NCBI GenBank assembly: GCA_903911135.1
Contig: CAIWCG010000016.1
Location: 1 to 46,136 of the forward strand
Direction: 5' to 3'
Length of the DNA stretch: 46,136 nt
From: an uncultured Bacteroidota bacterium
GTDB taxonomy: Bacteria; Bacteroidota; Bacteroidia; AKYH767-A; JABDAW01
A model generated the notes under the pieces. That model saw only the letters and a list, made by a program, of their open reading frames with translations. It ran no database searches and was not told the origin of the DNA. The position numbers and the translations under genes are program-made. Below, one piece after another: positions 595 through 38,984 of the stretch (position 1 is the first letter of the stretch; each line of letters starts with the position of its first letter).

Positions 595-648
595 CACCTT
601 GAATTTTACCTATCGTTTAACCAAAACTAAAAAACATGAAAAATTTTA

Positions 649-658
649 CCCCCCCCCC
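649..658 (+). promoter_or_regulatory. ten-C homopolymer, probable phase-variation tract
   Basis: Ten consecutive Cs follow ATGAAAAATTTTA, which starts at 636. As printed, the ATG at 636 reads out of frame and stops after about 25 codons. With nine Cs it would fuse in frame to FHFTFILVVAMMLAFATA, a good signal-peptide hydrophobic core, and then to the adhesin. Confidence 0.65.
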
Positions 659-690
659 ATTTTCATTTTACCTTCATCTTAGTTGTTGCC

Positions 691-3600
691 ATGATGCTTG
701 CATTCGCTACAGCTAAAGGGCAAGGCACTCCACTAAGTGTTTCGTATTCAAGAGGCAGTTATAGCGGAGGTTATCAAATCAGTTGTCATGGTGTGAGTGA
801 TGGCAGCATCAATTTAACGGTGAGTGGTGGCGTTACTCCCTACAGTTTTCTATGGAGCAACAGTGCCACGACACAAAATGTTTCGGGCATTGCTGCCGGA
901 ACGTATTCAGTTACGGTAAGCGATTCGGGTGGGGTGAATGTGGATACTTTAACAGGAATTTCAATTACCCAACCTGCTACACTTACTGCAACAACAGGAC
1001 ATTCAAACGTGAATTGTCATGGTGCAAGTACCGGAAGTGCGTGGGCTATTCCAAGCGGTGGAACAAGTACCTATTCTTATTTGTGGTCGAATGGCGGACA
1101 AACCACCGATACGGCATCAGGATTGCCAAAATTAGTAACTGGATATTATGTAGTAACCGTTACCGATGCAAACAGTTGTACTGCCACTTCTTCTGCCGAT
1201 ATTTCAGAGCCGAGTGCCCTTACCGCCAGTATCTTTTCTCATACGGATGTGAGCTGCAATGGTGGAAATAATGGAAGTGCCATAGTGGTTGCCTCTGGTG
1301 GAACTCCCGTTGCCACTGTTGAATTTAGCGATCCGCATTATATGTATTCATGGAATACCTCTCCAACCAAGACCACCGATACGGTAACCAATCTATCATA
1401 TGGAACCTACACAGTAATTGTAACAGATGGCCATAGTTGCACTGTCACCACATCGGTAACAGTTACCCAACCTTCGGCATTGTCCGTCAGCACGGGGGTA
1501 AGGAATGTATTGTGTTATGGTGGCAACACGGGCTATGCTTATGCGATTGTTTCGGGTGGAACGCTTGGGTATTCCTACTTGTGGAGCAATTCGCAAACGG
1601 TGGATACTGCCATCAACTTAAGTGTTTCAGGTGCTGCCTATTCGGTAACCGTAACGGATGGACATGGATGCACAAAAACTGCATCGGCAACCATAAGCCA
1701 ACCAGCGGTTTTGGTGGCCTTCTTTTCTGTTGGAAATGTTACGGATGTATCCTGTTTTGGAGGTAACAACGGTAGAGCTACGGTAACTGTAGTAGGAGGT
1801 ACGGCTTCCTATTCGTATATTTGGTCGAATTCGGCAACAGGGCTGACCGATTCACTATTAACAAAGGATACCTATTATGTTACGGTTACCGATTCGAATT
1901 CGTGCACGGCAACAGCAAGCATCAACATCAATGAACCACCGGAAATAGTCCTTAGTTTATCAAATGATAAATATAATGGATATGATATTTCTTGCAGTGG
2001 TGGGAGTACTACCATTAACACAGATGTAAATGGTGGTACACCTTCCTATTCTTATCTTTGGTCCGATGCCAGTACTGGAACTAAATTGAGTGGAACTGCT
2101 GAAACATACAGTATTACCATAACCGATGCTCATGGATGTATTGCAACGAGCACTACCACGCTGACAGAACCAACAATAATAACAGACAGCATTTCAAGCC
2201 CTGTAAACGGTTATGGATATAATGTGAGTTGCATGGTGAATGATGGAGAAATTGAACTAACGGCAAGTGGTGGGGTTACGCCATATAGCTATGCTTGGAG
2301 CAACAGCACGACCACACAAAACAACTATTCGGTTTCATCGGGATTAAGTTCTGTAACGATTACGGATGCTAATGGCTGCACGAAAACCGACACCATCACG
2401 CTTACTGCACCGACAAAACTTACGGCAGTAACGGACAGTATTCATGTCTATGCGAATGGTGCGAATGTGAGCGAAGATACGGCACATGACGGAAGCATTA
2501 CGGCACTTGTAACAGGTGGAACGACACCCTATACCTATCAATGGAGCACACCGAATGTCTTTGCATTGCCTACACCAAACACCAACCAAACCCTGACTAA
2601 TTGCTATCCTTATCAGATATATTATGTGCTGGCTACGGATGCGAATGCCTGCACGATGCAAAGCCCACCAATATTGTTGAACAGCTTTGTAGGGCGTGAT
2701 TTTTGGTCTATTCATGGGAATGTGATAGACACAACGCGTTTCATAGGAACTCTTGACAGCAGCGATTTGGTCTTTAAGACGGATACGATTGAGAGGATGC
2801 GGATTAAGGCGAATGGGGAAATTCAAATGCATGGAATAAGCAAGTTTGATACGATAAGGGTTGGGAGGATAATGGCTATCGATAGTATCATTACATTTGG
2901 TGATAGTTCCATACAAATGATGCCAAGTTATGGCAAAATAATGAATGATGAATATGGATTGGTTAAAGGGATTGCAATTGGTAAAGGAAATTTACCCGCA
3001 AGCACCTTGGCTTTTGGAAGGAATTCAACTGCTATTGGATGGAATGTGAGGACGCAAAGCCCATTAGATATTGGGGCAGATGGAACAAATTCAGTAATCA
3101 TTGGAAGTGGCGACCCAACGACCCCAACCGGACATTTTTTCTATAACAACAAGCCCAATACATTAATGGTTGGTTTTAACTCTGATATTCCCACTTTATT
3201 TGTTGGGGCATCAAATGGCAATGGAACAACTGGATATGTTGGTATTGGAAATTCAAACCCTTTAAGCGATTTGCAAATTGGATATGGACTTGGAAAGGTG
3301 AATATTGGAGCAAATACTTTTTTAAATTCCCCATCATGGGTTGCAAACTATATAGGATTTAATGCTGCTAGAGATAATAACAGTAGCAGTAGTACTTACC
3401 AACAATGGATAACCAATACTGATGGTGGTAGTAATGGTGGTAGTGTAATTATGGGAGATATAGCAGGTGGATTAAGATTCGTAAATATCAAAGGAACAAG
3501 CAGTCATACCGAACAACAAATAACAGATAGTGATATAATTACAACTTCATATACCAATATGATAATTAATGGATACGGTATGGTTGGAATAGGAACAACT

Positions 3601-4041
3601 TCACCCTATTTCAAATTAGATATAAATACTGGAACTGAACATAACGGCTTAAGAGTTAAGGTGCCTTCTGATAATGATCCAGCCATGCAAATTGATAATT
3701 CTTCAAATTCGACAACGAATTTTTTGGTACAAGGGAATGGAGAAGTCTATGCAAGAGCAGTTCATGTTATTGCCCCAAGCAATACCATTCCGCCTGATTA
3801 TGTTTTTGACCAGGATTATAAACTTAAGTCACTCATAGATTTAGGAAAATACATCGAAGGAAATCATCATTTGCCTGAAATACCATCAGCAAGTGAAATT
3901 ACTTCTAATGGAATTGACTTGGGAGAAATGAATTTGAAACTCCTGAAAAAAATTGAAGAGCAGACGCTCTATATTATGAATTTGCAAAAGCAGTTGGATG
4001 AGCAGAATAAGAGGATTGGGGGATTGGAAAAGAAAAACTAA
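691..4041 (+). CDS. SprB-repeat surface adhesin, 1116 aa, signal peptide out of frame
   Basis: A large cell-surface protein. About eight SprB-like repeats fill residues ~20-670. Each has a ScnGg-type opening, GGTpYsYlWSn in the middle and YsVTVTDanGCt near the end. The rest is a beta-rich tail carrying IGIGTTSP-like segments of tail-fibre type. The last ~75 residues (YKLKSL, HLPEIPSA, LGEMNLKLLKKIEE) form the coiled-coil end common in Bacteroidota fibre proteins. No T9SS type A sorting domain is visible. The true start is probably the ATG at 636, separated from this frame by a ten-C run; 691 lies inside the signal-peptide core. The next gene starts 5 nt after the stop. SprB repeats are known from gliding adhesins; a role in attachment is inferred. 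Confidence 0.85.
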   Translation: MMLAFATAKGQGTPLSVSYSRGSYSGGYQISCHGVSDGSINLTVSGGVTPYSFLWSNSATTQNVSGIAAGTYSVTVSDSGGVNVDTLTGISITQPATLTATTGHSNVNCHGASTGSAWAIPSGGTSTYSYLWSNGGQTTDTASGLPKLVTGYYVVTVTDANSCTATSSADISEPSALTASIFSHTDVSCNGGNNGSAIVVASGGTPVATVEFSDPHYMYSWNTSPTKTTDTVTNLSYGTYTVIVTDGHSCTVTTSVTVTQPSALSVSTGVRNVLCYGGNTGYAYAIVSGGTLGYSYLWSNSQTVDTAINLSVSGAAYSVTVTDGHGCTKTASATISQPAVLVAFFSVGNVTDVSCFGGNNGRATVTVVGGTASYSYIWSNSATGLTDSLLTKDTYYVTVTDSNSCTATASININEPPEIVLSLSNDKYNGYDISCSGGSTTINTDVNGGTPSYSYLWSDASTGTKLSGTAETYSITITDAHGCIATSTTTLTEPTIITDSISSPVNGYGYNVSCMVNDGEIELTASGGVTPYSYAWSNSTTTQNNYSVSSGLSSVTITDANGCTKTDTITLTAPTKLTAVTDSIHVYANGANVSEDTAHDGSITALVTGGTTPYTYQWSTPNVFALPTPNTNQTLTNCYPYQIYYVLATDANACTMQSPPILLNSFVGRDFWSIHGNVIDTTRFIGTLDSSDLVFKTDTIERMRIKANGEIQMHGISKFDTIRVGRIMAIDSIITFGDSSIQMMPSYGKIMNDEYGLVKGIAIGKGNLPASTLAFGRNSTAIGWNVRTQSPLDIGADGTNSVIIGSGDPTTPTGHFFYNNKPNTLMVGFNSDIPTLFVGASNGNGTTGYVGIGNSNPLSDLQIGYGLGKVNIGANTFLNSPSWVANYIGFNAARDNNSSSSTYQQWITNTDGGSNGGSVIMGDIAGGLRFVNIKGTSSHTEQQITDSDIITTSYTNMIINGYGMVGIGTTSPYFKLDINTGTEHNGLRVKVPSDNDPAMQIDNSSNSTTNFLVQGNGEVYARAVHVIAPSNTIPPDYVFDQDYKLKSLIDLGKYIEGNHHLPEIPSASEITSNGIDLGEMNLKLLKKIEEQTLYIMNLQKQLDEQNKRIGGLEKKN

Positions 4042-4046
4042 TATCC

Positions 4047-4820
4047 ATGAAAAAGTTAGTAATGGTAGTATTATTTGCAATGTTAGCAGGTAATACTAAG
4101 TCACAAAATGATACGACAAATAAAAATCATTTCGGGGTTTCAATAGGTGTTGCTGTTAATTTGACACCTAACTTTGATTATTACCCAGTATGGTATACGC
4201 AAAAATCTGATTATACTCATTATCCTGAATTACTAAATAGTTATGGAGATTTGTTATATAAGAATGCTTTGCATAGTTTTCTTTTAAATCCCAACATTCA
4301 GTTATCATTTTATATGAAAAATGGGTATATTAATACATTAAGTTTCGGGTATATCTATAATAAGCTTGAAGGTGGGCAAGGTGATTATGCTTGGCATAGC
4401 ATAAAAAATTTTTATTTGAATTATGAATTTATTGTTAATGTTATGAATAAACCAACAAACTGGCTAGTTGAACCTTTTGTAGGTTTGGATATTTATTATA
4501 GTTATAAATATTTAACTGAATATGATGAATATTTCAATTTTAATGGTAATCAGCCCAATGATGTTTCATATGATTATGATAATTCAAATCTTTTCTTAAT
4601 CCAATTGCCTGTTGGTATAAAGAAAGCATTTGGTAAAATTAGTTTCTGTTTACAAACACATTTTAATTTAATGGGATTTATCAATGGTAAAAATAATTAT
4701 CTTAATAATTGGGAAAATGTTAAACTAAATTACTCAAAAACATTATTAATTGATAAACTATACCAAGAGAATTATATCCTTCAAAATGTTCAGATAAAAA
4801 TTGGTTATATTTTTAAATAG
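4047..4820 (+). CDS. envelope protein, probable outer-membrane beta-barrel, 257 aa
   Basis: It begins with a typical signal peptide (MKKLVMVVLFAMLAGNTKSQ). The mature part alternates aromatic and polar residues in short strands (FGVSIGVAVNLTP, YINTLSFGYIYNKLEGG, VEPFVGLDIYYSY) and ends in a strand closing with phenylalanine (IKIGYIFK). That pattern suits a small outer-membrane barrel. It sits 5 nt after the adhesin and 8 nt before the next gene, so it is co-transcribed. It could help anchor or export its neighbours, but nothing in the sequence proves that. No named family was recognised. Confidence 0.7.
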   Translation: MKKLVMVVLFAMLAGNTKSQNDTTNKNHFGVSIGVAVNLTPNFDYYPVWYTQKSDYTHYPELLNSYGDLLYKNALHSFLLNPNIQLSFYMKNGYINTLSFGYIYNKLEGGQGDYAWHSIKNFYLNYEFIVNVMNKPTNWLVEPFVGLDIYYSYKYLTEYDEYFNFNGNQPNDVSYDYDNSNLFLIQLPVGIKKAFGKISFCLQTHFNLMGFINGKNNYLNNWENVKLNYSKTLLIDKLYQENYILQNVQIKIGYIFK

Positions 4821-4828
4821 TATAAATT

Positions 4829-6805
4829 ATGAAAATAATAATAATATTTGCAATTTGTCATATTCTAATTGTCTATAATGCTGATGGACAAAGTTATCCA
4901 CTAAAGGAGACATACGACCAAAGTTTAGAACCACATTATGCTTCCTCGGAATATTCTACGCCTACTAATTGGTATAGCAGTTGGAACGAAATACTCCTTT
5001 CGTATTTGAGGATGTATGAAACCACTTTAGATAAGGCATATTTAATAAAATTTATAAAATGTTCATATATGTTTCAACTTGGTCGCTTAGGAGGCTTAGA
5101 GTATAATGATTTACCAATCTGGTATATTCCAGATGATGAACAATTGTTATATGGGGGGCAATTAATTCGGCCTATGGCTGAATTTGTTCATTTAGTTAGA
5201 TCCAACCAAAGTTTATATAATACTAATTTACCTACTTTAGATGGCATTCCAACACAAATTGGAAGTCAAAATATTTTAGGATATGGAGATTATGCAAATT
5301 GGCTACAGGGAAGAGTGGTGGAAACTTTAGATTATTTCCTTACACATTATTGGAATGATGATGATGGCTATTTTAGTAAACATTGGGAAAGTAGTGATAA
5401 TGATTATACAGATATTGCCCAGATAGCTGAAATAAATTTTCATAGCGCACTTGCATGTGCTCTTTTTTATATTGGCAATGTTGACCCAAATGGACATAGT
5501 AATTATACAACAATTGCTGAAAAAATAGTAACTTTTTTTAAAAATCGGGTAACTGAATATACAGGAAATCACTCATATACATGGTTTCATAAAGATGAGC
5601 CAAATTGTACTCCAACCACTCATCTTCCTTGTCGGGAAGATGTAAGACATGGAGCTTGGGACATTCAAATACCTATAGTTGCTTACAGGCTTTACGGTAA
5701 CGGATTATATTCGATTTCTGAAATGAATAAATTTTGTCATACATTTACTTATAATATATGGGACAGATATAATCACGTAATTCACAATACTGTATTTGGA
5801 ACCGATTTCCAATTTACTGATGATAATACTTACCATACCGACTGTTATGGGGCACATCATATTGAATATGACAGCCCAAATTGGACAGGTGAAGGGGAAG
5901 TGCTTGCTTGGATGCCATTACAAATTTGGGATGATGTTAATTCAGCCCCAAATGATATCTATACTGTTTTATTAACTCAAGCAATTAAATTAGTTGCTAA
6001 TCATTCATATGACCCTGCAATATTACCTTTGATTTACCAAAACGGTTGTTATCATGATACATATCTTCTATCCGGTCCTGTAAGCTTTCGAGGCTGCTCA
6101 GAAGTTGTAAAAGCTCAATATGACCATGGATGTGTTGATTTAACACTATATAACAGGGATGTTATTTATGACCAAGATTTTTTCGGTAAACACGATTTGA
6201 AAGTTACACCACAAAAATATACTACTTCATATGATCATCCAAATTTATATCCAAGTGGTTCTCTGCCATTTGCCGACCCACAATTACAGATATTTGCTGA
6301 CGGTGGTAACATGGATAGATTTGTTATTGAGGATGGAGTAACCGTAAACATGATGGCATCAAATGAAATAGATTTATTGCCTGGTTTTGAAGCAAAGGTA
6401 GGTAGTACATTTAATGCCACAATAAACACCAATGGCTGTAACTTATGGGGGCATAGTGATGTTGCACCACCGCATAATAGCGGCGATGGACCATCTAACT
6501 TAAGAACCACAGTACCACCAAAAAAGAATACCACAAAACAAACAGCAGTAGAAAATTCATTGCAGGTTTATCCTAATCCTTCTAATGGAATAATAACCTT
6601 AACGATTAATAACCAAACAAATGGTACTTATCGTTTTGTATTAACAGATATTTCTGGGCGGATGATAACAGACAGAAATGATTTAATCAATGGCAGCAAC
6701 ACCATAGATGAAAGCATGCTGGACCAAGGGCTATATATCTATAAGGTTTATTCATCGAATGAACTTATCGGTACTGGCAAGATAGCTATAGTAAAGGGGA
6801 ATTAA
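4829..6805 (+). CDS. T9SS-exported protein with possible alpha-toroid domain, 658 aa
   Basis: A signal peptide (to about residue 20) is followed by a ~430-residue region with many paired helices and aromatic or acidic motifs (WLQGRVVETLDYF, HWESSDNDYTDIAQIAEINF, DVRHGAWDIQIPIVAYRLYG). This recalls alpha/alpha-toroid glycan-active enzymes, but no catalytic signature was identified. Residues ~490-540 (IEDGVTVNMMASNEIDLLPGF) match the short stacked-strand module often found before T9SS tails. The last ~80 residues are a type A sorting domain (VYPNPSNG, LTDISGR, GLYIYKVYS). Export by T9SS and surface attachment are well supported; the enzymatic role is not. The sorting domain is nearly identical to that of the gene at 7608. 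Confidence 0.8.
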   Translation: MKIIIIFAICHILIVYNADGQSYPLKETYDQSLEPHYASSEYSTPTNWYSSWNEILLSYLRMYETTLDKAYLIKFIKCSYMFQLGRLGGLEYNDLPIWYIPDDEQLLYGGQLIRPMAEFVHLVRSNQSLYNTNLPTLDGIPTQIGSQNILGYGDYANWLQGRVVETLDYFLTHYWNDDDGYFSKHWESSDNDYTDIAQIAEINFHSALACALFYIGNVDPNGHSNYTTIAEKIVTFFKNRVTEYTGNHSYTWFHKDEPNCTPTTHLPCREDVRHGAWDIQIPIVAYRLYGNGLYSISEMNKFCHTFTYNIWDRYNHVIHNTVFGTDFQFTDDNTYHTDCYGAHHIEYDSPNWTGEGEVLAWMPLQIWDDVNSAPNDIYTVLLTQAIKLVANHSYDPAILPLIYQNGCYHDTYLLSGPVSFRGCSEVVKAQYDHGCVDLTLYNRDVIYDQDFFGKHDLKVTPQKYTTSYDHPNLYPSGSLPFADPQLQIFADGGNMDRFVIEDGVTVNMMASNEIDLLPGFEAKVGSTFNATINTNGCNLWGHSDVAPPHNSGDGPSNLRTTVPPKKNTTKQTAVENSLQVYPNPSNGIITLTINNQTNGTYRFVLTDISGRMITDRNDLINGSNTIDESMLDQGLYIYKVYSSNELIGTGKIAIVKGN

Positions 6806-6844: not shown

Positions 6845-7570
6845 ATGAAGAAAATTAAATTTATCCTAATTGGATTTGTTTTAGTAATATCAATATTGGG
6901 TTGCGATAAGGAGCCAAGTGCCTCGTTTACCACTGATAAAAATGAATATATAGCTGGTGAAATAGTTCATTTAACAAACACTTCATCCAATGGTAGCTCC
7001 TTTTTATGGACCTTGCCCGATGGAACTACCTCAACATCAAACAATATAGATTACCAAATAAATTCAAACGCGATATTCGAAAAGCTGACTTTTAATCTTG
7101 AAGCCTTTGATAAGGACGGTGATAATAATTCAATTTCAAAATCAGTTCAGCATGCTTCTGTTTATTCTATTGATAGCACTTATTATTATTATGTAGCTCA
7201 AAGTGTAAGTAACTCAATAAATGGTGGAAATTGGGTAATAAGTGCTGCATATAAATCTGGACCAAATTTAAATGATATAGATGCATTCTTGTATATTTAT
7301 TTCCCTGGAAACATGAGGCCATCAGTATCCGGTACATATAATTTGCAGTCAAATAATTCAACATTATCCCCTGGTCAGGCTTATATTGATTTATATATTG
7401 GAGGTGCAGATGCTTATTCAAATTATATTTCTTTATCTGGTCAATTAAATGTTATCGTCAAGGATGGGATAGTTCATGCCATTTATAATCATATTGATGC
7501 CAAGCACACAGATTATCATGCCATAAATCATCCAAATGTCAAGATTTCAGGAGATATAATTTGTTTTTAA
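6845..7570 (+). CDS. PKD-domain lipoprotein, 241 aa
   Basis: The N-terminus is a lipoprotein signal with the lipobox SILGC, Cys about residue 20. Residues ~25-105 form a PKD/Ig-like domain (ASFTTDKNEYIAGEIVHLTN, FLWTLPDGTTS, LEAFDKDGDNNS). The remaining ~130 residues are beta-rich and not recognised. It lies 39 nt after one T9SS cargo gene and 37 nt before another, inside the same operon. It is probably a surface or periplasmic lipoprotein. Confidence 0.75.
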   Translation: MKKIKFILIGFVLVISILGCDKEPSASFTTDKNEYIAGEIVHLTNTSSNGSSFLWTLPDGTTSTSNNIDYQINSNAIFEKLTFNLEAFDKDGDNNSISKSVQHASVYSIDSTYYYYVAQSVSNSINGGNWVISAAYKSGPNLNDIDAFLYIYFPGNMRPSVSGTYNLQSNNSTLSPGQAYIDLYIGGADAYSNYISLSGQLNVIVKDGIVHAIYNHIDAKHTDYHAINHPNVKISGDIICF

Positions 7571-7607: not shown

Positions 7608-9584
7608 ATGAAAATAACAATTAATATTATTTTAAGCTTTTTCATAAAGTTGAGTATTGCACAATATGTGTTTTCTGGATATACTAATAAATTATCATAC
7701 CGAAATAATGATGAAGTAACTTTTTTTCTAAATAGTGAGGTTGGGATTGCTTTTGACGCTAATCTGGGTTTAAATGATGTGAATGGGGGTGATATGGGCA
7801 TTACACTACCTACATTAAATATTCCAATACAAAATACAATTAATTTATCAAATCCTTGGGAAGATGGTTTCGGGTATACTGCAAATACAGTACATTGGAC
7901 GATACCTTCATACTTTACATTAAAGAGTGGGTTATATTTTTTATCAGGTACAACTATTCCTATAATAATAAAAGGAGATATGAATGCGGAAGATATTGTA
8001 ATTGTAATTCCAACAAATACAGACGCGGCTTATAGTAACATTGGTGGTAAAAGCTTATATGAAAAGAATTCAACTAATCAAATTGCATCAACTAAGGTTT
8101 CATTTTTAAGACCATTACCATTATCGTCAAACACCTCGTCACAAAGAAAATACTATTTATCCTTTTTGCAATGGTTCACAACTCAATATTTAAATTATAA
8201 CATTAGCGTAATTTCGGATATGGATATGGATGATTACAATGAAATTTCACATGCAAGACTTCTAATTGTTATTGGACATAGTGAATACTGGACAAGAAAG
8301 GCCAGACTAAATTTTGATAGGTTTGTTGATAATGGAAAAGATGCTGTATTTTTGAGTGGTGATGCAATGGGATGGCAAGTACGTTATAGTGGAGATAAAA
8401 CTCAAATGATTTGCCATCGTAGAGCCGACATGAATACTGATGGTAATTCATATGTTTATAAAGGCTGGGATGATGACCCAATATGTGACCCATTACTAAA
8501 TACAAATAATTGGTGGTATCCTTCGTTAAAATATTCTGTATTGAGCAGTATTGGTGCATATTGGGACATTGGTGGATATGGGAATCATGAAGGTTGTTAT
8601 GGTGGATTTAACGGTCATAAAATTCTATTACCCCAATCACCGCTATTATCCAATACGAATTTCAATTATCATGATGTTCTTACATTTACCACAGGTGAAT
8701 ATGATGGAACCATAATTAGTAATGCAGACTCAAATGATGGACATATTATAGGAAATGGTGGTGATCCAATACTCGATGTAACAGGATTGGGATTTTATAG
8801 GGCTGAATTAATAGGCTATGACCAAACGACATATGATCCCAACAAAATTCGATATTGTCCTTTTATCGCCTTTCAAAAAAACTGCTCATCTGGTAAAATA
8901 ATAAATGTAAGTTCAAATTTTTGGTGTAGCGATATAGGAATTGGTGGAACAATTGATCATACAACATCAGGTCATCCTTTTACTAGCTGTCCATCGTATT
9001 TAATTACTCCTGATTATACAAATATTAGACAAATTACCACTAACATGATTGATTTATTATTGTCAGGATCAAATATATTTTCTAATGCTCCCCCTGTTTC
9101 CTTTAGCATAAAACCATCCCCAATAAATGTAAGCTACAGTGCATGTCATCATGGTTCAATTGATATAACTCCTTGTGGGGTATCAATTACACCTGATGAA
9201 GGTTATAGAATAGATCAGGTAGACGGCACATTCGTTGCCAATGTTATTGATTGTACAAATTGTGATGGACATGATTCAAGATTAGTAGATTATAATAATG
9301 TTAAAGGCATAAATTCTAATAATAATAATCAAACAAATGTTAATTTGTTTCCAAATCCAAACACAGGTGAATTTACCATAAAGATAAATTATAAATCACA
9401 AGGCACCTATCGTTTTGTATTAACGGATATATCTGGAAGACAGATAACAGATAGGAATGATTTAATAAACGGGACGAACACCCTAGACGAAAGCATGCTA
9501 GACCAAGGACTGTATATCTATAAGGTTTATTCATCGAATGAGCTTATAGGCAATGGGAAGATAGCCAAAATAAAGGGGAATTAA
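7608..9584 (+). CDS. T9SS-exported protein with dimethylformamidase-like domain, 658 aa
   Basis: A short signal peptide ends near SIAQ. Residues ~60-450 resemble the C-terminal region of the N,N-dimethylformamidase large subunit: VIGHSEYWT at ~220, an FDRFVDNGKDAVFLSGDAM segment and WQVR at ~260, and VSSNFWCSDIG. This domain has an unusual glutamine-amidotransferase-like fold. A Cys-rich stretch (CHHGSIDITPCGV, CTNCDG) comes before a type A sorting domain (LFPNPNTGEF, LTDISGRQ, GLYIYKVYS). The substrate is unknown, and real formamidase activity should not be assumed because only the fold-level signature is visible. The next gene starts 4 nt after the stop. Confidence 0.75.
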   Translation: MKITINIILSFFIKLSIAQYVFSGYTNKLSYRNNDEVTFFLNSEVGIAFDANLGLNDVNGGDMGITLPTLNIPIQNTINLSNPWEDGFGYTANTVHWTIPSYFTLKSGLYFLSGTTIPIIIKGDMNAEDIVIVIPTNTDAAYSNIGGKSLYEKNSTNQIASTKVSFLRPLPLSSNTSSQRKYYLSFLQWFTTQYLNYNISVISDMDMDDYNEISHARLLIVIGHSEYWTRKARLNFDRFVDNGKDAVFLSGDAMGWQVRYSGDKTQMICHRRADMNTDGNSYVYKGWDDDPICDPLLNTNNWWYPSLKYSVLSSIGAYWDIGGYGNHEGCYGGFNGHKILLPQSPLLSNTNFNYHDVLTFTTGEYDGTIISNADSNDGHIIGNGGDPILDVTGLGFYRAELIGYDQTTYDPNKIRYCPFIAFQKNCSSGKIINVSSNFWCSDIGIGGTIDHTTSGHPFTSCPSYLITPDYTNIRQITTNMIDLLLSGSNIFSNAPPVSFSIKPSPINVSYSACHHGSIDITPCGVSITPDEGYRIDQVDGTFVANVIDCTNCDGHDSRLVDYNNVKGINSNNNNQTNVNLFPNPNTGEFTIKINYKSQGTYRFVLTDISGRQITDRNDLINGTNTLDESMLDQGLYIYKVYSSNELIGNGKIAKIKGN

Positions 9585-16612: not shown

Positions 16613-16969
16613 TTATGATTCAAGACCTTTAATTACTGATTTTTTGATTGCATTTAGGTTAAATACACCCGTATGGTCACTCCATACACCCGTATGGTCA
16701 CTCCATACAACCGTATGGTGAGGCCATACAACCGTATGGTCAGGCCATACAACTGTATGGTCAGGCCATACAACCGTATGGTCAGCCCATACAACCGTAT
16801 GAGCAGCCGATACAACCGTATGATAAGGCCATACAACCGTATGGTCAGCCGAAACAACCCTATTTTTAGCCGAAACGAGCCCTTTTTTCCAAAAAAACAC
16901 CCCTCCGATGAACCCGCCATCAGCAAAACTCGATACTGTTATATATATAGGGCCCCGTTTCAGTTCCAT
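16613..16969 (-). CDS. heptapeptide-repeat ORF in 21-bp array A, 118 aa
   Basis: An N-terminal part (MELKRGPIYITVSS, FIGGVFFWKKGLVSA) is followed by about ten seven-residue units of the form DHTVVWP and a short tail. The ATG overlaps the end of the uORF at 16960-17061 (ATGGAACTGA, start and stop sharing bases), which suggests translational coupling. The stop lies 21 nt before the 229-aa gene. Caution: with a 21-bp period, any unit free of stops gives a long ORF, and other frames are open here too. Coding is possible, not shown. Confidence 0.4.
   Translation of the reverse strand: MELKRGPIYITVSSFADGGFIGGVFFWKKGLVSAKNRVVSADHTVVWPYHTVVSAAHTVVWADHTVVWPDHTVVWPDHTVVWPHHTVVWSDHTGVWSDHTGVFNLNAIKKSVIKGLES
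16668..16880. repeat. 21-bp tandem array A, about 10 units
   Basis: The unit is CAACCGTATGGTCAGGCCATA with a few changes per copy, decaying toward 16880. Most unit junctions contain CCATACaaCCGTATGG, so the array is also a series of small palindromes. Confidence 0.9.
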
Positions 16970-23771: not shown

Positions 23772-23990
23772 TCAAAGCATGCCAAAAGGGGTTTAGTTTT
23801 TAATAAAAGGAGTTCTGGTTTTGATAAAAGGTGTTTAGTTTTTGGCAAAGACAGTTGCGGTTTTGCCGATAGGAGTTGTAATTTTGTCAAAAGCAGTTGC
23901 GGTTTTGACAAAAGTAGTTACGGTTTTGTTAAAACCAGTTACGGTTTTGGCAAAACCGTAACTGCCCTTAGTAAAACCCGAAGTCCTTTT
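23772..23990. repeat. 21-bp tandem array D, about 9 units
   Basis: Degenerate 21-nt units of the form GTTTTGACAAAAGTAGTTACG, best conserved from 23858 to 23950. The array ends with an inverted unit, so GTTACGGTTTTG (23938-23949) and CAAAACCGTAAC (23951-23962) form a perfect 12-bp palindrome. Confidence 0.85.
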
Positions 23991-26378: not shown

Positions 26379-26621
26379 TCAATAAGAAATTAATGGTATT
26401 GATGGCAAAAAACAACATCTTTTTATGAATGAAACGGAGTTTTTTATGGATGAAACAGAGTTTTTTATGGATGAAACGGAGTTTTTTATGGATGAAACAG
26501 AGTTTTTTATGGATGAAACAGAGTTTTTTATGGATGAAACAGAGTTTTTTATGGATGAAATAAGTTTTTCATCCATAAAAAACTCCGATTTTTGGTCTTG
26601 AAAATGTGGTTTTTTGTTCAA
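26379..26621 (-). CDS. heptapeptide-repeat ORF in array B, 80 aa
   Basis: The frame opens with TTG or an internal ATG (MDEKLISS), runs through six SSIKNSV units and ends with a Cys-containing tail (FIKRCCFLPSIPLISY). It lies downstream of the 316-aa gene on the same strand. No promoter of the TAnnTTTG type precedes it. Coding is doubtful. Confidence 0.25.
   Translation of the reverse strand: MNKKPHFQDQKSEFFMDEKLISSIKNSVSSIKNSVSSIKNSVSSIKNSVSSIKNSVSSIKNSVSFIKRCCFLPSIPLISY
26424..26584. repeat. 21-bp tandem array B, 6 units plus inverted end
   Basis: Six near-perfect copies of GATGAAACAGAGTTTTTTATG, differing mostly by A or G at one site. The last unit is followed by an inverted copy (TTTCATCCATAAAAAACTCC), making a stem of about 18 bp with a short loop, as in array D. 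Confidence 0.92.
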
Positions 26622-38516: not shown

Positions 38517-38984
38517 TTATTTAGAATTTATTTTCTTGGGGCCTTTTTTCATTTCTGATGAATATTTGTGATTATCATTAATGGAAATGTTCTCTGCAAG
38601 GAAAAAGTTTGCATATGCAATTCGATGGGTTGCATATGCAAGAGAAAACTTTGCATCAACAAGACGATGGGTTGCATGTGCAAGAGAAAAGTTTGCATCT
38701 GCAAGACGATGGGTTGCATGTGCAAGAGAAAAGTTTGCATCTGCAAGACGATGTGTTGCATGTGCAAGAGAAAACTTTGCATGTGCAACACGATGAATTG
38801 CATGTGCAAAAGAAAACTTTGCATGTGCAACACGATTGATTGCATGTGCAGAAAATGTTTCTGCAGACGTTTTATCGAAAACAAAAAGTAAAGTTTTGGG
38901 TGTTTTAAGTATAAAACGGGCTTCCTGCTCCTCCACAGCAGCAAATGCCATCCCTTGTCCACCAAAAATGCCTGTCTTTTTCAT
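38517..38984 (-). CDS. repeat protein in array C, 155 aa
   Basis: A 45-residue unique N-terminus (MKKTGIFGGQGMAFAAVEEQ, FILKTPKTLLFVFDKTSAET) is followed by about six 14-residue repeats (AHATHRLADANFSL) and a Lys-rich tail. Each 14-mer is two 21-bp half units. A TATTTTTG promoter box ends 5 nt before this ATG, exactly as for carA and the TPR gene, which is the best sign that it is expressed. The stop is 23 nt before the 247-aa gene. Five of the six frames are open across the array, so coding is likely but not proven. Confidence 0.5.
   Translation of the reverse strand: MKKTGIFGGQGMAFAAVEEQEARFILKTPKTLLFVFDKTSAETFSAHAINRVAHAKFSFAHAIHRVAHAKFSLAHATHRLADANFSLAHATHRLADANFSLAHATHRLVDAKFSLAYATHRIAYANFFLAENISINDNHKYSSEMKKGPKKINSK
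38606..38866. repeat. 21-bp tandem array C (42-bp higher-order unit)
   Basis: Alternating halves GCATGTGCAAGACGATGGGTT and GCATGTGCAAGAGAAAAGTTT, about six pairs. The low end carries the perfect palindrome TTGCATATGCAA twice. Confidence 0.92.

Follow-up and report, generated by a model that had tools for sequence, protein, structure and literature searches.

In Neisseria, the poly-G tract of pilC lies in the signal-peptide region of the gene. The change from G10 to G9 in this tract switches PilC1 from on to off (PMC5231331). In Helicobacter pylori, in-frame translation of the adhesins encoded by oipA and sabA depends on a CT repeat in the 5' coding region, which for oipA lies in the signal peptide (PMC10564699, PMC2715451). 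In Bacteroidota, phase variation of surface structures is mainly known from invertible DNA (PMC11868660). Flavobacterium johnsoniae glides with the help of SprB, an adhesin on its surface (PMC3796261), for which no description of a switch tract was found in the open-licence literature that was searched. In the same search of open-licence literature, beyond which prior work may exist, no switch based on slippage turned up for Bacteroidota. A survey of 99 genomes in 2010 reported that poly(A) and poly(T), not poly(C) and poly(G), are generally over-represented, preferentially at the 5' ends of genes (PMC2831843).

The locus described here lies in a window of 46,136 nucleotides, the whole stretch of DNA that was analysed (contig CAIWCG010000016.1 of assembly GCA_903911135.1, an uncultured Bacteroidota bacterium). 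All coordinates refer to this window, and the adhesin gene with its 5'-end features and the genes 4047-4820 and 7608-9584 are on its plus strand. Judged mainly from comparison with relatives, a run of ten Cs at the 5' end of an adhesin gene is very probably a slipped-strand phase-variable switch, which is OFF in this assembly. In the ON frame, the full-length adhesin starts with the ATG at 636-638; the start codon of an orthologue from a genome of the same genus (G001, contig C133), which is in frame, aligns with it. The C10 tract at 649-658 occupies the n-region of the signal peptide and is in frame at nine (or 6, 12) Cs. It is followed at 659-725 by the hydrophobic core and c-region, which read HFHFTFILVVAMMLAFATAKGQ in the ON frame; the counterpart in the orthologue is IFHFVFIFLVTMIASSAAMYGQ. 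A putative Bacteroidota-type promoter element, TATAATTTTAC, is located at 585-595, about 41 nt before the start codon. We assume its promoter role from general knowledge of Bacteroidota promoters. The upstream sequence AATTTTAC is also kept upstream of the orthologue, in an alignment that includes the 5' leader.

An earlier note on this DNA had placed the ATG at 636 and the ten Cs at 649-658, and these positions are exact. It had also proposed that the ten-C frame ends after about 25 codons. This frame translates from ATG 636 to MKNFTPPPFSFYLHLSCCHDACIRYS, a total of 26 codons before the stop codon TAA at 714-716, and with eleven Cs it has only 15 codons. Reading the nine-C form confirmed the further claim that nine Cs join a signal peptide to a 1116-aa SprB-repeat adhesin: ATG 636 becomes fused to the adhesin ORF, with the N-terminus MKNFTPPHFHFTFILVVAMMLAFATAKGQG. 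The ORF itself, 1116 aa from an internal ATG, extends over 691-4041 and is intact, with no stop and no second frameshift. At ten Cs, its frame is closed upstream by the TGA at 637-639. The SprB family (PF13573) matches the adhesin in seven stretches (E 1.6e-58; 194.5 bits, against a Pfam curated cut-off of 28). A C-terminal sorting domain of the type IX secretion system (T9SS; PF18962/TIGR04183) was not found in the adhesin (P0001) with Pfam and NCBIfam. Signal peptides were judged by hydrophobicity and not by a trained predictor. Over 15 residues, the highest Kyte-Doolittle mean reached is 2.45 with nine Cs, 0.95 with ten Cs and 0.56 with a start at 691. Since the value at 691 is so far below that of the nine-C form, the product of this start would lack a usable signal peptide, in agreement with the claim that this start cuts into it.

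The length of the run is unremarkable by itself; it is the position of the tract and its conservation that matter. The genome (3.80 Mb in 296 contigs, 98% complete) was analysed by pattern searches. The C10 tract is its longest C/G run and its sole run of 10, among 15 runs of at least 8 in all. A first-order model of 3.8 Mb leads one to expect 45 C/G runs of at least 8 and about 2.5 of at least 10. The idea that a run of this length is improbable in itself was thus rejected, about 2.5 being expected and one observed. The other 14 C/G runs of the genome (8-9 nt) are mostly intergenic or within intact frames, and no obvious switches were seen among them. Only one tract of the adhesin-switch kind was found in this genome, a point against the switch.

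Relatives were compared at one genome per species. In G001, from the one other species of the genus that was compared with a near-complete genome, the orthologue carries a tract at the same codon, C8 and in frame (sequence ATGAGCAAATTTACCCCCCCCATTTTTCATTTC), followed by the signal peptide MSKFTPPIFHFVFIFLVTMIASSAAMYGQ. The tract length thus differs between the present genome (G000, C10) and G001 (C8), while the flanks are conserved. What is conserved is therefore the place of the tract, and its length and frame differ. A second homologue of the same genus, in G002, has no tract, which also counts against the switch. G001 has, in addition, a G14 run in another secreted protein (L241, contig C104); it lies in the n-region and is in frame as assembled. 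The sister genus (G003) has four members of the adhesin family with complete 5' ends (L082, L083, L084 and L069), and none has a C run. Instead, tandem repeats of 7-8 bp units lie between the ATG and the signal peptide: AACAGTC (6.4 units), CAACCTTT (7.4 units), TCAGTCG (10.9 units) and GAGAACA (14.3 units). In the assembly, each of the four is out of frame and would be restored by gain or loss of one or two units. Differing repeat units at one spot of one adhesin family would be hard to explain otherwise than by selection for a slippage-prone element. A protein-based search of the genome contigs returned only distant C-terminal homologues of the adhesin, and a search of viral contigs with the flank gave no match.

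Similar tracts are found across the order. In 42 genomes, ATGA followed by C8 within 30 nt was searched for and the DNA was read at three tract lengths; C8 matches that lacked a long frame or a signal peptide did not enter the counts. Many starts such as MKKSFTPPP..., MKNLITPP... and MKRTPPPP... were recovered, with tracts of 8-14 Cs, followed by hydrophobic cores and AQ-type c-regions. A search for G tracts was first meant as a negative control, but at a greater distance from the ATG, G tracts turned out to be another version of the device. When all C/G runs of 9 nt or longer were counted in the same 42 genomes, 149 distinct runs were obtained, to which a crude signal-peptide rule with a start within 45 nt was applied. 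The n-region of a signal peptide held 23 of the 149, compared with 3.5% of random positions (p about 3e-9, an optimistic value because paralogues are not independent). The enrichment is limited to the longer runs, with 19 of 70 at 10 nt or more and 4 of 79 at 9 nt.

Tracts of this type were also found in paralogue families. G021 has five SprB paralogues with G9-G10 in the n-region (L123 and L227-L230), three ON and two OFF. One pair of its paralogues, G9 OFF and G10 ON, has flanks identical at 97/100 and 289/300 positions. In G022, all five paralogues (L270-L274, G10-G12) are OFF, each one base too long. At the level of the class, a scan of 295 genomes gave 76 matches, counted as table rows, compared with 39 for a reversed control pattern. 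Of twenty class matches that were fetched, at least 10 clearly encode a signal peptide (three in G156, plus those in G266, G102, G258, G126, G248, G309 and G179). Among the class matches, no secreted ORF was found for G205:C67, G109, G310, G284, G233, G166 and G069. Many of the proteins encoded after the tracts have SprB repeats or a T9SS tail or are subtilases; the others are secreted proteins that were left unclassified. An extreme length was seen in G303 (L325, contig C2), where a C23 tract stands after ATGAAGTATATCTA and before a signal-peptide-like sequence ending in AQ; the frame stops after 55 codons. The ON and OFF states of 44 carriers were curated by hand from the C-tract, G-tract and class-level loci. 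Eight of the 44 are ON, slightly fewer than the random expectation of one third (p 0.04). Behind this deficit there may be selection for OFF, common descent of the loci or some remaining error; it is a point against the switch, but we give it no weight.

An error of sequencing or assembly is the alternative that survives best, although we regard it as unlikely. According to this explanation, the gene is intact and its tract really contains nine Cs. Errors are frequent in homopolymers of ten, a single base sets the frame, and the assembly is in 296 contigs. Many of the other carrier genomes are also fragmented assemblies in which homopolymer lengths may be off by one, which counts against a switch. 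However, error leaves the placement of tracts in signal-peptide n-regions unexplained. Among C/G tracts of at least 9 nt, 22 of 28 inside other long ORFs are in frame, whereas of the 25 in n-regions this holds for 4 (Fisher p 6e-6). Long runs in other genes are thus mostly in frame, which argues against a general homopolymer error. The 7-8 bp repeats of G003 are not explicable as miscounts of a single base either. Furthermore, a tract with nine Cs would remain a candidate switch, in the ON state.

Programmed recoding, in which ribosomal frameshifting or RNA-polymerase slippage yields the full protein from the ten-C gene, is very improbable as the main explanation. Ribosomes are known to slip into the +1 frame on CCC-C, and a +1 shift at ten Cs would restore the frame. 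A programmed shift, however, has one direction, whereas 18 of the curated C-type OFF loci need one base fewer and 11 need one base more, so that both directions occur among homologous and analogous loci. In addition, G tracts and 7-8 bp repeats serve the same job, and some tracts are in frame already. Recoding at the tract may still provide low-level leakiness. A chance frameshift that permanently silenced the adhesin is slightly less credible again. It is compatible with the OFF state of the assembly, but the 1116 codons are still open with the repeat as the sole defect, and the tract is kept in G001, where it is in frame. We count the intactness of this frame despite the OFF state in favour of the switch. 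The least probable proposal is that ATG 691, which opens the longest ATG ORF in the present sequence, is the true start, with the ATG and the C run before it as mere leader sequence, since MMLAFATAKGQG has no n-region and almost no hydrophobic core (0.56 versus 2.45) and the residues upstream of it form a conserved hydrophobic segment in G001, joined in frame there.

A phase-variable switch thus remains the preferred reading, and it agrees with the proposal of the earlier note. It is supported by the C8 tract at the same codon in G001 and by other repeats at the same place in the four G003 members, and is also backed by tens of secreted-protein genes with C/G tracts in the n-region, in mixed states. 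The locus has several features of a simple-sequence-repeat switch. Gain or loss of a repeat unit at the adhesin tract changes the reading frame. The tract length varies between related copies with conserved flanks, both between G000 and G001 and between the G9 and G10 paralogues of G021. The product is a surface or secreted determinant according to its SprB repeats and to the ON-frame signal peptide predicted from hydrophobicity. The evidence consists of assembled sequences, with a single genome for this species, and the change in length is a comparison between relatives and paralogues.

The mechanism that we propose starts from the C10 run as a hypermutable simple-sequence repeat, at which slipped-strand mispairing during replication would add or remove Cs. 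With 9 (or 6, 12) Cs, translation from ATG 636 would run through the signal peptide into the SprB-repeat adhesin of 1116 aa, and this protein would be exported (ON). At 10 or 11 Cs, translation would halt after 26 or 15 codons, and any product of the internal start at 691 would be without a usable signal peptide (OFF). The segment that separates the start from the hydrophobic core probably tolerates proline or glycine residues, so that any in-frame length would give the same protein after removal of the signal peptide. In the OFF state, 3.3 kb of mRNA would be largely untranslated, and this could lower expression of 4047-4820 and beyond by polarity. We infer that the switching is reversible and ongoing, that the ON state leads to export and that adhesion is the switched trait. 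Surface display of the SprB-type adhesin is the presumed function.

The gene at 4047-4820 starts 6 bp downstream of the adhesin and is possibly co-transcribed with it. It encodes a 257-aa protein with an N-terminal signal-peptide-like sequence, for which no family match was found in Pfam or NCBIfam. Further downstream, 7608-9584 encodes a T9SS-sorted protein with a DMFA2_C domain, 50% identical over 694 aa to the product of L080 (2730-4775). This homologue lies downstream of the adhesin in G001, where a homologue of the window gene 6845-7570 is present as well, so that synteny is partial. A T9SS sorting domain is present in the products of 4829-6805 and 7608-9584; these two proteins near the adhesin have the same length of 658 aa, and both have a type A sorting tail. 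Two direct copies of a 152-nt element (1-152 and 239-390), 93% identical, occupy the end of the contig shortly before the adhesin, and the ends of the element are roughly inverted (5-33 and 126-154). The element is probably a dispersed repeat that broke the assembly. Tandem arrays with a period of 21 bp (or 42 bp) are found at 16663-16888, 23783-23955, 26420-26569 and 38595-38850. Similar periodic sequence (e.g., NETSFDG..., EVAIVMVEDASFMR...) adjoins C9 runs elsewhere in the genome (L020, L022), and the arrays look like a genome-wide repeat family.

The best reading of the wider survey is that the device is widespread across Bacteroidia and new to the literature searched. We consider it fairly likely that Bacteroidia have widespread, repeatedly evolved contingency loci, in which poly-C (proline), poly-G (glycine) or 7-8 bp repeats lie in the n-regions of SprB-type and other secreted proteins. 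Sometimes these would form paralogue families with different members ON, giving a combinatorial switch of the surface coat. A signal-peptide repeat switch on gliding- or adhesion-type proteins, if true, would widen the inversion-centred picture of phase variation in Bacteroidota. Gene callers likely assign wrong starts to such adhesins, which then appear leaderless.

The invertible-DNA systems of Bacteroides share with this locus the phylum and the phase variation of surface structures, but they rely on inversion by a recombinase and not on repeat slippage. SprB of F. johnsoniae shares the SprB repeats (PF13573) with the present adhesin, which differs in having no detected T9SS sorting domain; the adhesin is also shorter than many SprB-repeat ORFs of the order. 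The oipA and sabA switches of H. pylori are built on a dinucleotide repeat and control outer-membrane proteins of a host-adapted pathogen, whereas homopolymers or 7-8 bp units are used here. In pilC1 and pilC2 of Neisseria, as in the present gene, a homopolymeric G/C tract lies early in the gene of a secreted adhesin. However, PilC is a type IV pilus adhesin, an unrelated protein from another phylum, and the tracts of Bacteroidia are mostly proline-coding Cs, but also glycine-coding Gs, on SprB-repeat and other secreted proteins. Nothing suggests homology of the C10 switch with those of Neisseria or H. pylori; by analogy, they appear to work alike.
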